Below, piece after piece: positions 50,665-59,889 of a stretch of 64,000 bases of DNA; position 1 is the first letter of the stretch; each line of letters starts with the position of its first letter. The notes beneath the pieces were generated by a model that was not told the DNA's origin, ran no database searches, and saw only the letters and a list, made by a program, of their open reading frames with translations. The DNA is from Pempheris klunzingeri (lineage: Eukaryota; Chordata; Actinopteri; Acropomatiformes; Pempheridae): assembly GCF_042242105.1 (NCBI RefSeq), contig NC_092012.1, forward strand, positions 17,062,543 through 17,126,542. The letters are read 5' to 3'. A program made the position numbers and the translations under genes.

Positions 50665-51060
50665 CAGCTATGGGATGGATAAAGTTTGGCATACACATCC
50701 ATGGTGCCCAGAGGATGAACCCTGCAGATTCTGGTGATTCTCTGACTTTTCCTCCGGCACCACCATTAAGTTAACATGTTATTTTCACTAAAATGTCTAA
50801 ACAGCTATTTGATGGATTGCAGTGAAATTTGGTACAGATACTCATGCACCTCTCAGGATGACTTATAATCATTTGGTGATCCTTTAAGTTATCAAAATAT
50901 TTATTTGTCTAATACCACAATTTATGACCAAATACCCGCTGAGCTAATGACACTCAGGCTAATGACAGCCTCAGCTGTATGTTGTGTTGTGATTCGCACA
51001 TGTCAGAATGCTAACATGCTAATTTCAGGTTGTGATCATGGCCTGTTGGCCACACACAGA
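50665..51060. repeat. Percomorph interspersed repeat (TTTGATGGATTGCAGTGAAA family)
   Basis: Two related units follow one another. Unit 1 (from about 50671) has GGATGGATAAAGTTTGGCAT then GGTGCCCAGAGGATGAA. Unit 2 (from about 50806) has ATGGATTGCAGTGAAATTTG then CTCTCAGGATGAC, followed by a TTTATGACCAAATACC block and an ATGCTAACATGCTAA block. I recognise this order as a common dispersed repeat in percomorph fish. There is no coding potential. Confidence 0.65.
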
Positions 51061-53908
51061 TGTAAATAATAAAACTAATGATAGCTGAATTTCATATGGC
51101 TGTCTCAGTTTCAGGGTCCTGGTATTATGCATGCTGACTCAACACGACAGCTTACTGGGACTCTTGAATAAAACTGAGCTCTCATTAATATTATATGTTA
51201 CTTTGTTATGTTATGCCTTTTTATTCCACAGCAGTTATGATGCCAAAACCTCTTCAACTTCTATATTTCATTCTTCTGTTTGAAAATTTCATTTCTTTGT
51301 TATGTACCTAAGTGTAATTATTTTCTAGAATTTACTAGAAGCATTTTTAATACTGCAAACCACTTTCTTAAGTTTGTTTCCAGTTAAAAGTAATACTCTT
51401 ATGATTACTTTACTTTTATTTTTAACCAGTTAAATACAGATGTGACAGTTATTATATGACAATAAGTGCTACAAAGATCCTTATAAGTTCACAACTGTAA
51501 TGTTGTTTTCCTGCTCATGTCTTCCCTTCTGACAGCTCCTTGTATAGAGGAGCGTTCACTGACGGAGGAGGACTCTCGTCATTTTCTCAATACCAGGACG
51601 AGACTGTCAAACAGTTCTTGTTCTCAGGGCCTTCTGTCTTAACTGGGATACTTCAGACCATCTGCAACTACTTCAAAACCGCTACAAACACAACCATCCA
51701 CTGGAATTTCACTGCAAAGTCCTGACCAGTATGATTGCTGGAAACATGACTCGAGCACTATGAAGTCTCATATGCTGAGGTTTACTGTGGTGAGTTCAGG
51801 GAGGTAAAGTACCCTATGTGGCAATGGGCTTCTTTCATGGGACTTTGGGAATGTGGTGTTAAGATTATACAACCATCGTCATGTAAATATTGATACCTGT
51901 GGACTGCCTGGAACACTCAGGTGAAGATGGGGGTCATCATGGTCTAAGATTGTTGCAAATACACAGATAATAGTACTCTAGTATAGTATAGTGTAGTAAC
52001 TATAGTTCTCTGCAATAACTAAGCTGAACAGCATATGACACCTAAAGACCTGCAAGTGATGCTCCTGTTTACCCGAGTTACAGTAAAATTGAATAAACTT
52101 TGGTGGGGACACTGATAAATCAAAAACATCTCAAATTTAATGGAAACTCAGCAACATAAACCTTTGCTGGAATAACAGTGTGTGAACAGAGGCTGCTGTT
52201 GTGGCTGAGCGGCATGTGCTCCTCCTTTCTCCTCCAGTTTCATCCGTCTAACTGACACAAAGGACCACACAATAAGGTGCTGAACACATCTGGCAAAAGA
52301 ATTTTAAAACTGTAGTTTCTAAATGCAATAAATGAATATGTGTATATGGTAGCTGAGTTGTGTCCTTGGAGGTGATATACCCTGCTGTTCTATTGTTTAT
52401 AATGACTACAAGTGCAAATGTATTGAGCATAAAAACATGTCAAATCTTCACGAAACCTGAATTTAAACATTCAGATTTTCAAAATTTCTCTGCTTTAACA
52501 GAAAGACTGTCAGTGAAAAGCATGAAGAACAATAACTTTATATTTAGAGTAATTGATGAAGGCCTTTTCACCAGATGCCACCTTTACATTTGATAAAACG
52601 GCTGCCAATACATCCCACAGATCTTCTGTTGGTCAACACTCAAGCTAACCATTTATCTACCTCACCTTCAACAATGAGCTGATTTTTTTTTCTGCACACA
52701 CGCTTACGAATGTATATTTTCTATTTTCCCTTGCTAGACCACGCTGTCATCACTGACAACCACCTGCTAACAATTACAGTGTCACTCAAGACCATCAGCT
52801 GCCACAACATTGAACACTGAACCACAACCTCATCCTGCGGTTGTACACAACAGACGCTGCATTGGTCCCTTCCTCACCAAGGACACTGCCCATCCTCTTC
52901 TTCCAGCTATAATTGACTCTGGGCACCACAACTATTTGAATCCGCCCTGTCAAGAATGCTCCATCCCAGCATGTCTTCTGTTCCACGTCATCCCCTATAA
53001 CCCCATCACCGGCTGCTTGGGCCTTGCATATATATATATACATACATACATGTCTGATTTCAAACCACTTCGACGAGCACAATACCAGCTGTGATTGTTT
53101 CAATAACTTCTAAAGTCTATCGTAAGCTGAGAAATAAAAATCCCTGCTTGTGCGTTAACATAGGACAATGCATTGTGTCTATGCAAATGTGCTTGAGCAC
53201 CAAAAGTAAAATCATGTAGATCATTTGCTTAAGAAGAAGTTGCAATGTTAAAACATGCAACAAGTAAAGATCACAAGTAAAAGTAAAAGTTTGATTGTGT
53301 TAGAACCAAATTATTTAACGTGAAACAGCTAATTCTGTTTTTGATAAGTTAACTGCTTTCATTTTGTGGCTGCAGGTAGAAATAAGTACTGCTGCCTCTG
53401 TAATGTTGGGCAGGTCTAAAGCAATGAATCACATTTTAAGTTACACTACAGGGAGGCTTCAATTTTATCCAGTTTTCTGAAATCTTCCACACAATTTTAA
53501 TCTTAAAAAAGAGTCTTCACATTGCTATGCCTTTCTTTTATGGCCTGTGAATTAGCTACCTAGTTGTTGAAAGGTACAGGACAAACAAACAGGCCTTGCC
53601 TGACCTATAGAAGTGGAAAGAGGAAGGAGTAGTAAAGTTAAAACTAGAGATACTCACGTTAAGTTAAAAACTTTAGTGTCATTCAGTGTTGTGCTAAACG
53701 CACTGTCTCCTCAAAATGATTCCCAGTAGGTTTACAATATGACAAACGCGTTTGGCAAGGATTGACCTTCCCGAGGCTCCGTACCAGTGATAAACACTGA
53801 CAAGCAGCTGTTCCGTCAGTATTATGTTACACAGCTCACGTGGAGGACTTTACTGCAGCGTAACCGACTTTTGCACAAAATAGACTCATTCGCATCAACG
53901 TTAACACA
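51061..53908. other. Divergent dbndd1-mthfsd spacer and mthfsd promoter side
   Basis: No recognised protein. Splice-like sites and a poly(A) hexamer at 51536-51789 and 52738-53155 are described as a possible unannotated transcript in the findings. The last 200 bases before 53909 should contain the mthfsd promoter; no clear core element was identified. Confidence 0.5.
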
Positions 53909-56900
53909 ATGCAGCCTGTCATACAAATACATCCTGGTAGGTTAAATATTCATGACGCTGGTTTTCTCGTTAAAAATGGATGTCAGTGTGGAGCACTTGG
54001 AAATGTTTGGCTAGTGCTGCTTCACTGTGAATGTGGCGTTAAGCCTGCTCTGTTTTCTCTGCAGGAGCGTCCAAATGGGACATTCGTCAGAAAGTCTGGG
54101 ACTACATCGAGGACAATAACCTGGCTAACTTTCCAAGGCCTGTTCACAACAGAATCCCAAATTTCAAGGCAGGTTAAAGCGGTTAAAAACTGGAGGACCA
54201 AGACCAAGTGTGGCTGGGACCAAATGAATCCACTGGCAGCTGAACTGTTATGTCAGATATACAGCGGCAATAATGGCGCAGTCGTTACAAAAGCTCTGTG
54301 CAGATATCTGCTTTGTCATTCATTCAGGCTTTATTCTTTAATTTCTGGTCCACTTACTGTGACACTGTGACTGGTCAGCTATGTTTAGCATGGGGGGCCA
54401 CGTGTCCTCAGGACGATACAAGCAGTGATGATGCCTATGTACACATATGGGTCGAAAAACAAGAGAACAAAACAGGCTGATTATGATAACTCTAAAAGCA
54501 GCAGTAGGCTATGAAGTGATAAAGTAAAGTTGTGTAGAATTACACATATGTAAACATATATGTAACACACACACACATACACATACACATATATATATAT
54601 TTAGGCCTGTATGTATGTGTTTTGCACCCTGTGGTTGGTTGGCGACCAGCCCAGGGTGTACCCCGCCTCAGAGTCAGCTGGGATGGGCTCCAGCTCCCCT
54701 GCGACCCTGACAGATAAGCGGTATAGAGGATGGATGTGTTTTGAAGCAAAAGTACTTTCTAGAATAGCAATCTTTTCCTAAACAGGTATGTAATCAACAC
54801 AGTGCGTGACTTCTAACTGAAAGAGATGGCAACTTACCCACTCATTAAGGTCACAGTGTTGTGTTTCACATGTTGGTAAAGTAAATGTCTTGGTCATTGG
54901 TTAAATCATTGTTACGAAAATAACACCAGCACATCAGTAGCTCTTGGCTGTATTTTGAATGATTAATGGCTGTCCTGTCTGTGCATCTATGATCTTTCTG
55001 TGTACTCATGGGCCAGGGTGCAATTGAAGCATGCAACAGGCTTGCAGACCTGCAGGAGTTCAAGTCCAGCCAGACAGTCAAAGTAAACCCAGACAGACCC
55101 CAGCAGCAGGCACGCTTTGTCAGTCTGGAAGTAAGTGGACTCGGGGAAAAAAAAATCATCAGCCCTTATGCCGTCCTCTCCTTTCAACCAGGGTGCTTTC
55201 ACAGCCTGTGCCAGGGTGTGTGAGCTGCAGGCGTTCACCCTGACAGCTGAGGTGAAGGTGGATCCTGACAAACCTCTGGAGGGTGCCCGGCTGGCAGTGC
55301 TACAGGTAGCACAAAGATCCAGAGTGCCTCAGGCTGTTTTACAGAAATATGATTACTCTGTCTGTTCTGTTTTGCAATACTGTCAACTTGAGCTGCATGC
55401 AGTGGTGTATTAGAAAGTGAGTTAGAAATACAGAAGAACTGTTTAAGAAAGTGGAGGATTACAGATCTGCTATTAGACTCCAGAATCTGCCAAATAAGAT
55501 CGTGTGTTTCTGTGTTTCCCATTTCAGGCACAAGAATGGTTTTTATTGCTGTGCATTTGCTATTTTCAGCATCACTCACTCAATTACGTTCAATTCAGAT
55601 TTAATGTACAAATAAAAAAAAATAACAGTAAATGTCTTGTCTTCTTGGGCTAATCTTTGCAGGCACAGAAAACATTATTGGTCCCAACTCCTCGTCTTCG
55701 CAGCGGCCTTTTCAATAGAATTACTCCTCCCCAGGGAGCCAACAAGGAACAGCTACGTATTTGCTCTTCCTCACAGGTTTCAACTTGCTGATTTTACATG
55801 TTTTTTTTTTTTTACCCAGAATGTAATTATGGCTGATGAGCCCCCAACATTTAACCCATTCCCATCTTTTCTTCTCTTCCTGTCCTCTGAACCTGCTCCT
55901 TCAGGGTGTGAAAGACTTCAGTGTGCCTGTTGGCCTGGACACAAAGATGAAGGTAGACCTGGTGGTGGTTGGTTCTGTGGCGGTGTCAGAGAAAGGTAAC
56001 AGCTCAGTTAAACACTGGCAGCATATTACACATTTCCCCACTAACAGATGATGAATTAGTATGCATATGTGCCTGCTAATGTATCTGTTTATTATGCAAT
56101 TTTATTTTGTTATAATTATTGTAACAGGGCTATGAGCCATAGACCAATTTCACCATATAAACAGTAAAGTGCAGTATATTGAATCTAATGAAAACCAGCT
56201 TAAAACATACTCTTCACCTGTCAACAAACAGTAGTTAAAGCCACATGTGTTCTGTTGTATTGTACAGTGTAATTAACATTATAGAGTCCAGGTATATTTG
56301 ATGATGACCAAACACGCACAGTCTGCTGATAGATACTGACTGTACTTTGAAGATTAGACATAATATCCTGTATGGGGTGTTGATTACACTGTGGAAAATG
56401 ACACAAACACAAATACTGTGTATTGATTATTGCATGTGCTTTGTAGCCCACTGACGCACCAGAACAGATTTGAAGAAGAACAGAAAATGGGAGTGGGGGC
56501 AGATGTGGATAATCAGATCCATTTTGCTCCTTGTGGGTTCTGCTGTGTTCTGCTCTCCATGTAAAATCACTCAGAGTGCATTTGGATCCTCATTTTCAAA
56601 ATGCCTGAGATAACAGACGAAGTGCTGCGGTGAAACAGACATGTTTACCGTAATGCATACATTTCCAAATGAGTGTACAACGTCACATGGTTCTCATAAA
56701 GCTTTGCACATCAGGCTACATTTCATTGATTTTTATGAAGTGAAGTGAATTATTACAGCTGCCCTCCGCATGCTCGTCAGTGTGTTATAATTCAGTGTTT
56801 TTAAAAATGCTGAATGTGATGCAGATGCTGGTTGTTTCTGATTTATACACAGAAAGGATCTGTGATATAGTCCAAGCAAGAAAATGCCAAATCAAAGGTT

Positions 56901-59889
56901 GAGTGTCGACTGTTCTCCTTCCTCATGGTTCCTGTCTGCTCCTGCAGGCTTTCGGATCGGAAAAGGAGAGGGTTACGCTGACATGGAGTACGGCATGATG
57001 GCATCAATGGGAGCTGTGAACGAGTCCACTGTGGTGGTTACTGTTGTCCATGACTGCCAGGTTAGTTCACTTATTAGAGTTCTGATCACGTTGATTTATG
57101 GATTGTAATGTACATGTCCAAGTACAGGAGACATTATTTAATTAAAGCTCTCTACACTTAATTTATTGAATAAAAACCAGATGAACACCATAGCATTAAA
57201 AAATGTCACTTAAAATGCCACTATAGCCATAGTGGTGAATGAAAATTACACTTTAAGTTATTATTTATATTTTTTCAATTCATCAATTTGACATGTAATG
57301 TAAAATAACAGCAAATGTGTGATACAAATCATACATTCATGTGAGTACACAAGTATTTTGGCAGATGTAACTATCAAAGGTTTTAACTTGAAATTCTAAA
57401 TAAATGAAAATAAGAATCTGATAAATACTCTCCTTTTCTCCTAATTAATAAAATTGTCACAAAGATGTCTAAATATGTCTAAAAATAAAAAGTGCTGACA
57501 TGATGGTATTTGTGCTTTCAGGTGGTGGACATTCCTGAGGAGTTGGTAGAAAGTCATGACATGACTGTGGACTACATCCTCACACCCACCAGAGTTATTA
57601 AGACAAACTGCCTGTTCCCCAAACCACAAGGCATCATCTGGACTAAGGTACATTTCTGTGTCTTGTGCTACTGTAAATCCACAATACAGACATACAGTAC
57701 ATCAGATAAGATAGGAAACCTCACTGCAGCCCCTTCAATAATACCTTAATCAAAAGCAATCCATCAGAGATTCAGTCCTTATGTAGCGTATTAATCTTAA
57801 AATGGATCAGTCTTATAAATTGTATGAAGTTAAATGAGAACACCATGAAGAGGGTTCTACTTCAGACTGAGGAAATTAGCATTTGGTGAACATAAACTCA
57901 AAAGTGTAAGAATAACATCTTTACAGCATCAGAACCAGTGTTGTACTACAGTTGAAGCACTCAGGTATAAAATTAACCTAAAATATTATCACTCATCTAG
58001 GGGAGGGTATGAATAAGATCCAGTGGGATGAAGATGACTTTTTATCCCAAATAAAATAAAATGTGTTACAAACAACAGATCACTTTGTTTACAAAGCGCA
58101 TGTGTGCTGTAATGTTTTAGCTGCTTCTTGAACACCTAATTTGACAACAAAGCTGCATGACTCTTAAAATGGATATACTGAACAGATATGTATAAGCTGG
58201 TTGTACACACATGCTCTGTCCTGAGCAAAGTATTTCTTTGCACAGCGACACACTGCCCTCTAATGGACGTCTAATGACACTACACCAAAGTCAAAAGACT
58301 TCATTCTGCCTCTGGATGCATTCACTGTCTCTGTACTATAATAATTGTTACAGTAAAACTCTTTTTTTGCTCACTTGTTTAATCAGCAATAATAATAGAA
58401 TGAGCTAGCATTTTAGTTTTTTACATACAGTACATAAATGTACTCTTAGGACGGCAAAACACAGGAAGGATCTTGCCAAGACAACAAAATAATGAATTAA
58501 CTGTAATGTGTGTGTTTTTAATTTTAACGTCTCACTTTATCTTCAGTCTATATTTAAATCTGGACCTTAAACTGCCTCTGATTTACTGACACTGGCGGAG
58601 AGACGTCGTGTTTTTCCACCGGATAATTTGTCTTTAATTAGACGTGATGGAGGACATTATTCTTAACATGTGAAGAGTTTGTGTGTAACCTCTGGGTTCC
58701 TTAAGACACGCTTGCAAGTAAACAGGACCCAGTGACCTCACTGGCAGGAAGGCCAAGTCTGATCATCAAAGGCTCCTCTGCCCGGCCAGCTCGGCTCTAC
58801 AGGGGCAGGGGAGCGATGGGTCAAACAGGCCAGTGTAAAAACAATAGCCCCGTATATCCTTTACAGGACTGGTCAGCATCAAAGGCTGCCAAGACACTTA
58901 GAGGCCCAACAAATCAAGAGAGCAGCCTTTATTTTTAACTGCTGGGGAAGTGAAATGTCCTGATGCTATAAAGATAGTTAGAACTATAACATCGGTATGA
59001 GCAGGATGGAATAACATCAATTAATTTGTCAGCTTTCGCTTTGTTGATAATTTAATTCATCCGTCGGTATGGTGCATTGGCTCCAAGCAGGGCTAACTGT
59101 TTGCTGTGTGTGACACCCTTCCCCATTTAGCCTTGCTGAACCTTTCCAGTTTTGTGTCTTCAGCTGGACACAGAAAAGTTGGAGAAGATCCCCATCCTGA
59201 AGAAGCTTCGTGCTCTGGAGGAACAGGCGGGAAAGGATGTAACACTGGGGGCGGCGCCTGTCGCAGCAGAGCCTGGTGAGCAGACCGGCCAGCCTAAAAG
59301 GCAAAGCAGGCGGAGGCCGAGGCAGAACGCGCAGCAGGGTGCTGAGGGAGAACCCAGACAGGACTATAAACAGGAGAAAAGAGCAGAGTCAGAACCGAAA
59401 GCCAGACAGCGCCCAGCTAGAGTGAGGAAGGAAAGCCGAGGAGATGGTGGGGGAGCTAGACGGGGAGAAGTGAATGAGAGAGGAAGGGGAAAAAGTGGAG
59501 GGAACATGAGGGAGAAGGGCTCAGAGGAGGGTGGAAGTGAAGTCATGTCTCAGAGTGTGACCACTGTTTACCTGGGGGGAATCCCTGCTGGGCTCCGGGT
59601 CAGTGAGCTGAAAGCTGCCCTCAGAGAGAGGGAGGCAGCCCCGCTGAGGCTCACCTGGCAGGGAGCTCAGCACAGGGCCTTCCTGGACTACAGTGACCCT
59701 CAGGCTGCAGAGCAGGCCCTGGAGGCCCTGCAGGGGCTCAGTCTGAATGATCACACTCTGCACGCCGAGCTGGCCAAGAGCCAGCGGGGAGGCAAGCGGT
59801 CCGGACAGTCCAATAGGAGACCCAGACCATCAAGGCCTCAGAAAACTACCACAGCACCAGATGCTAAGAGTGACACCAATGAAGACTGA
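53909..59889 (+). CDS. mthfsd: Methenyltetrahydrofolate synthetase domain-containing protein (MTHFS-like fold plus RRM), 471 aa per isoform
   Basis: Exons: 53909-53936, 54065-54168, then either 55017-55130 or 55192-55305, then 55663-55776, 55905-55995, 56948-57060, 57522-57647, 59164-59889; 1416 nt with one cassette. The MTHFS-like (5-formyltetrahydrofolate cyclo-ligase) domain covers about 12-260. Motifs are [13 protein letters not shown] before the cassette, [16 protein letters not shown] after it, and [13 protein letters not shown] at 153-165, the counterpart of the nucleotide-binding glycine motif of MTHFS. A basic Arg/Glu/Gly-rich linker (about 275-355) leads to an RRM at about 363-440, with TVYLGGIP as RNP2 and HRAFLDY (400-406) as a weak RNP1. 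Family knowledge: MTHFSD binds RNA and its cofactor activity is unproven. Exon 2 ends at a GC donor (54169-54170). The two cassettes are homologous and probably mutually exclusive; inclusion of both would give 509 aa. Confidence 0.93.
54605..54735 (-). repeat. Teleost interspersed repeat fragment in mthfsd intron 2
   Basis: Contains GGCGACCAGCCCAGGGTGTA, then CAGCTGGGATGGGCTCCAGC, then CAGATAAGCGGTATAGAGGA followed by a TGGATG end. This is the reverse orientation of the family seen at 20809. It lies between mthfsd exon 2 and the duplicated cassettes. Confidence 0.7.
55017..55130 (+). other. mthfsd: mthfsd cassette exon 3a (38 codons)
   Basis: Phase 0 at both ends, acceptor GGGCCAG at 55010-55016 and strong donor GTAAGTGG at 55131. 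It encodes a segment from [15 protein letters not shown] to [14 protein letters not shown] and then SLE. Read with exon 2 upstream and exon 4 downstream, it completes the MTHFS-like domain. The NPD-P signature resembles the form I remember from bacterial, plant and some vertebrate relatives. Confidence 0.85.
55192..55305 (+). other. mthfsd: mthfsd cassette exon 3b (38 codons)
   Basis: Also 114 nt and phase 0 at both ends, acceptor TTTCAACCAG ending at 55191 and donor GTAGCA at 55306. It encodes a segment from [15 protein letters not shown] to [14 protein letters not shown] and then VLQ. The second half closely resembles the human MTHFSD segment I remember ([14 protein letters not shown]). Identity to cassette 3a is 17 of 38 residues without gaps. 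Confidence 0.85.

Follow-up and report, generated by a model that had tools for sequence, protein, structure and literature searches.

The gene mthfsd of the fish Pempheris klunzingeri lies in a stretch of 64,000 nucleotides (nt) of contig NC_092012.1 (positions 17,062,543 to 17,126,542 of the forward strand; this whole stretch is hereafter the window, and its numbering is used throughout) and carries two adjacent homologous exons, 3a and 3b, which, judging from the sequence, arose long ago by tandem duplication of a single mthfsd exon, with each mRNA most likely carrying exactly one of the two. The pair is real and old, and probably functional, with exons that substitute for each other. Mutually exclusive tandem duplicated exons are a known class, of which the mthfsd pair would be, within the literature searched, a fresh example. 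An earlier note on this DNA (the original prediction) had already proposed the pair, and the points added here are which of the two exons is ancestral-like and the presence of a GC donor upstream of them. The name of MTHFSD rests on its folate-enzyme fold and, to our knowledge, the protein has no settled biochemical role.

On re-examination, the coordinates of the exons (Table 1), their equal length (114/114 nt), their phase 0-0 and the 17 identical residues out of 38, aligned without gaps, were as originally given, as were the 61-nt intron between them and the GT-AG sites on both exons; moreover, exon 2, which ends in IPNFK, joins exon 4 in frame through either 3a or 3b. The BLOSUM62 score of 3a against 3b was 85, whereas 20000 shuffles had a mean of −31 (standard deviation 12) and reached 28 at most, and a six-frame scan of the window with either exon gave only one other stretch scoring 25 or more, with a score of 26. 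An assembly or haplotype artefact was ruled out, as the copies agree at only 60/114 bases (24, 24 and 12 of 38 at codon positions 1, 2 and 3, respectively). The proportion of synonymous differences (pS) was 0.81, saturated beyond correction, and the duplication is therefore old; since the corresponding non-synonymous value (pN) was 0.364, the exons have evolved under protein-level constraint after the duplication, a pN/pS constraint that two sequences alone cannot assign to one copy or the other.

No further copy of the exon 3 segment was found in the whole 646-Mb genome, searched with the protein containing both exons and with the DNA of exon 3a: the protein search returned the mthfsd exons together with a single weak match (E 0.29), which lies on a different contig and outside the exon 3 segment, and the DNA search returned only the match of 3a to itself. 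Neither a retrocopy nor a third copy elsewhere was found in these searches. Separately, two exon matches to the family PF01812 (5-FTHF_cyc-lig) were observed on the mthfsd contig at contig positions 29498446-29501273, about 12.4 Mb away, and probably represent the MTHFS gene itself.

At the protein level, PF01812 matched over its full length (positions 1-186 of 186) with 102.9 bits for the form with 3a and 99.0 bits for the form with 3b, the cut-off being 27. The form with both exons scored 96.5 bits, and that with neither 79.7 bits, with loss of profile positions 1-63, namely the N-terminal third. The fish domain resembles the PF01812 family in exceeding the cut-off with either exon, and differs from it in three respects: it falls below the bacterial equivalog TIGR02727 (37.9 for both versions against a cut-off of 84.9), it is followed by an RRM-like tail (RRM_1 match in the last exon, E 0.0029, 17.9 bits, under the Pfam cut-off of 20.7) and it exists in two segment versions. 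Since both versions miss TIGR02727, the name 5-formyltetrahydrofolate cyclo-ligase was not applied. A bacterial relative was modelled with confidence, and in this model the segment forms one helix-strand-loop-helix unit of an MTHFS-like fold, with the Asn to Asp change (KVNPD to KVDPD) falling immediately behind the first domain strand. Sequence, domain profile and structural mapping on the bacterial relative support the proposal that the duplicated exons substitute for each other inside an MTHFS-like fold. Swapping the exons would replace Asn with Asp and Gln with Leu in the loop that follows the first strand, so that a putative ligand site would exist in two versions; because of the location of the Asn to Asp change in the model of the relative, different ligand properties of the 3a and 3b forms, as originally suggested, are plausible. 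The matches to the phosphatidyl serine synthase family PF03034 (12.5 bits for 3b alone and 14 bits for the double form; cut-off 25), to SWIB (11.8 bits, with both exons skipped, against a cut-off of 25) and to acetate CoA-transferase chains (E 0.024) were taken as chance.

Prokaryotic relatives were used to establish the polarity of the two exons. A tblastn search of plasmids gave 7 records with each version, and the full-length bit score was higher with 3a in 6 of them. A pattern scan of genomes gave at least 593 stretches and at least 537 relatives, of which the best 80 by similarity to an alphaproteobacterial sequence used as query were taken, so that the set for the exon columns comprised 87 proteins (7 from plasmids and the best 80 of at least 537), near duplicates being kept. 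An earlier genome scan with N-terminal patterns returned no relative, and none was found in the viral contigs and phages searched. The BLOSUM score over the exon columns was higher for 3a than for 3b in 6/7 plasmid and in 80/80 genome-scan proteins; when the columns of the search patterns were left out, 3a was ahead in 6/7 and 77/80, respectively, with 3b ahead in 2 of the 80 and 1 tie. Position 24 is Asn in 84/87 relatives, in a column inside a search pattern, and position 29 is Gln in 81/87, in a column outside it. Residues G1, A5, K22, P25, D26, R33 and L37 occur in both exons and each of them in at least 84/87 relatives (K22, P25 and D26 being pattern columns).

To lessen the bias of the pattern search, the 3b protein was run against 301 genomes from a single phylum. 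Nine genomes matched, one of them being the search centre, whose gene came from the pattern scan, and eight being new; the best place in each was taken, and a second, partial match (L113) was omitted. In all nine, 3a was ahead of 3b, whether measured by the BLOSUM score of the exon or by blastp bits over the full length. At position 24, 4 of them (3 of the 8 new ones) have Asn, the rest have Thr or Pro, and Asp does not occur; at position 29, Gln occurs in 6 and Leu in 3, thus the Leu of 3b is not foreign to the family. The identity of the prokaryotic relatives to the 3a form is 27-43%, and KxNPDxPQ or a close motif is present in most of the aligned ones. On these alignments, 3a is the version nearer to the prokaryotic family and keeps its motif, and 3b is the derived one. 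The human exon peptide shares 23/38 residues with 3b and 15/38 with 3a, the figure for 3a and 3b being 17/38; on this comparison, the duplication would be older than the fish-mammal split.

As regards the relatives themselves, two bacterial sequences (L105 and L106) are 41-44% identical to the fish domain, compared to 36-37% for the alphaproteobacterial L101, and carry VKVNPDAPQ at the exon 3 motif. The records L071 and L073, titled Opitutia and Anaerolineales, are identical over the aligned stretch, and L052, titled Bifidobacterium breve, is 57% identical to the alphaproteobacterial query; these are possibly mis-binned metagenome records. These relatives presumably belong to COG0212, and COG0212-type paralogues of the 5-formyltetrahydrofolate cyclo-ligase family were reportedly linked to thiamin by Pribat in 2011. 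Pribat 2011 is cited in PMC4120688.

We then consider how one exon could be chosen, with splice sites and branch points called by consensus match. The donor of 3a scored 4.8 and that of 3b 0.8 by a donor matrix, and the 16-base stretch before the acceptor contains 9 pyrimidines for 3a and 13 for 3b. The weak points on each side, namely the pyrimidine-poor acceptor of 3a and the weak donor of 3b, would be in line with the use of only one exon, the other being a fading relic; this is quite improbable, as both exons have an open frame, fit the phase of their neighbours and are bounded by GT-AG sites, both keep the seven residues listed above, and pN of 0.36 against saturated pS indicates constraint since the duplication. 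Rather, the choice between 3a and 3b may be set by these split strengths: 3a would combine the stronger donor with a poor acceptor, whose sole yUnAy match in the preceding 120 nt is 51 nt away, and 3b a pyrimidine-rich acceptor with a weak donor. Intron 2, directly upstream of the pair, begins with GC and is without a GT donor, the GT four bases further shifting the frame.

The only yUnAy in the 61-nt intron places the predicted branch-point A at intron position 38, at an ordinary distance of 24 nt from 3b, and any predicted branch point at least 18 nt from the acceptor would lie at most 43 nt from the 3a donor, under the limit of about 50 nt. A donor-branch point distance below 50 is treated as potential steric interference, found in 57 (9%) human clusters (PMC5740500), and the steric threshold is put at about 50 nt (PMC7969005); the available text of PMC4122358 gives no minimum intron length. 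The intron would thus impose exclusivity by holding its single consensus branch point too close to the 3a donor for efficient 3a-3b joining, while the donor of exon 2 could still use that branch point for splicing to 3b. Of the steric mechanism originally proposed, the geometry fits; the distance is, however, permissive evidence and no proof, because PMC8363638 states that introns of 43-65 nt undergo splicing in human. The original prediction had also argued from the reading frame, and this argument holds for retention of the 61-nt intron, which shifts the frame and leads to a stop inside 3b, but is limited to it: counting from exon 2 and including the stop, transcripts with one exon have 462 codons, with both 500 and with neither 424, all in frame.

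Several observations, then, weigh against strict exclusivity and against the polarity proposed above. With double inclusion and double skipping both in frame, the frame does not enforce the choice, and the splicing of the short human introns just mentioned points the same way; ectotherm OGDH reporters, fish included, yielded doubly included and doubly skipped products (PMC7969005). As for polarity, one of the seven plasmid relatives (Halalkaliarchaeum) scores higher with 3b, and plain identity over the exon columns in the nine genomes favours 3a in 7, with 1 tie and 1 for 3b. Finally, PMC7443856 lists a human mutually exclusive event, MTHFSD-102413-ME, with its exons unnamed.

Those frame and intron observations would also allow both exons to be spliced in together, forming a 76-residue tandem repeat around an intron that is short but constitutive and that does possess GT-AG sites as well as a branch point of consensus type. 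We regard this as very improbable: a second helix-strand-helix unit would enter a compact fold, and the PF01812 score of the double form is slightly under those of the single forms. Moreover, the relatives match a single-copy query over roughly the length of that query (567-675 nt; one partial, 303 nt), so that there is no room in them for an extra 38-residue unit. In addition, exon 6 of human MTHFSD contains residue 175 and exon 8 contains residues 243-244 (PMC11943623), and the fish exon lengths, with candidate exon 1 and a single exon 3, place exon 6 at about residues 151-188 and the start of exon 8 at 231; the human numbering thus fits, indirectly, one copy per protein. A looser alternation, in which transcripts with 3a, with 3b, with both and with neither coexist, overlaps with the preferred explanation and differs from it in degree. 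The reading frames of all four products and the leakage of the fish OGDH reporters speak for it; against it, the skipped form is without the N-terminal third of the domain and the distance from the donor to the sole consensus branch point is 38 nt, and we consider this looser alternation rather unlikely.

The preferred explanation, one exon of the pair per mRNA, places mthfsd beside known mutually exclusive tandem exons (KHK, OGDH 4a/4b, U2AF1 3/Ab), which it resembles in having neighbouring exons that are homologous and agree in length and phase, in the swap of one fold segment and in its old origin. With OGDH 4a/4b it shares an intervening intron whose branch point, predicted in mthfsd, is separated from the preceding donor by less than about 50 nt; by contrast, the OGDH branch points are far from the 3' splice site, whereas in mthfsd the whole intron spans 61 nt (PMC7969005). 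Joint inclusion keeps the frame in mthfsd, unlike in the human clusters with exons not divisible by three, 377 (60%) in PMC5740500. The mthfsd swap falls at a conserved domain loop, whereas human swap regions overlap predicted ligand residues below expectation (10.7% vs 14%), according to PMC9741552. MTHFSD is unnamed in the main text of both PMC9741552 and PMC5740500. The other papers examined that combine MTHFSD with 'mutually exclusive' reported, in the parts available, no further MTHFSD event of that type, and no account of this exon pair was found in the main texts of the MTHFSD literature as far as searched. A text search of the literature with three human MTHFSD peptides gave no match.

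The features of the locus are collected in Table 1. The mthfsd introns from exon 2 on, that between 3a and 3b aside, measure 128, 357, 461, 848, 952 and 1516 nt. Exon 1 was sought as an ATG followed by a phase-1 donor in the region 51001-54060; the candidate joins exon 2 in frame and is without other support. Elsewhere in the window, a single-exon open reading frame at 500-1477 was judged by eye to be melanocortin receptor-like (MC1R-like).

Table 1. Features of the mthfsd locus in window coordinates; the slash marks the exon-intron boundary.
Feature	Position	Strand	Remarks
Candidate exon 1 (MQPVIQIHP and first base of a Gly codon)	53909..53936	+	Donor CTG/GTAGGT; sole candidate, crude scan only
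Exon 2, ending RIPNFK	54065..54168	+	Non-canonical GC donor AAG/GCAGGT at 54169
Exon 3a, ancestral-like version (KVNPDRPQ)	55017..55130	+	Donor GAA/GTAAGT; pyrimidine-poor acceptor
GT-AG intron between 3a and 3b, 61 nt	55131..55191	+
Predicted branch-point A (CTTAT)	55168	+	Intron position 38; 24 nt upstream of 3b; consensus match
Exon 3b, derived version (KVDPDKPL)	55192..55305	+	Pyrimidine-rich acceptor; weak donor CAG/GTAGCA
Exon 4	55663..55776	+	Begins KTLLVPTP
Exon 5	55905..55995	+
Exon 6	56948..57060	+
Exon 7	57522..57647	+
Last exon, coding part	59164..59889	+	RRM-like stretch near the end

As a tentative proposal drawn from these sequences, vertebrate MTHFSD might possess two interchangeable cassettes for a putative ligand loop, namely the ancestral 3a (KVNPDxPQ), common to many prokaryotic relatives, and the derived 3b (KVDPDxPL), and through splicing an RNA-binding protein would then alternate between an older activity related to metabolites and a newer one. 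The mammalian reference protein is not known to show any but the derived form. If two loop versions exist, activity tests confined to the reference form may overlook the ancestral-like one. The locus is also a small test case for the intron length below which a choice between two exons is imposed.
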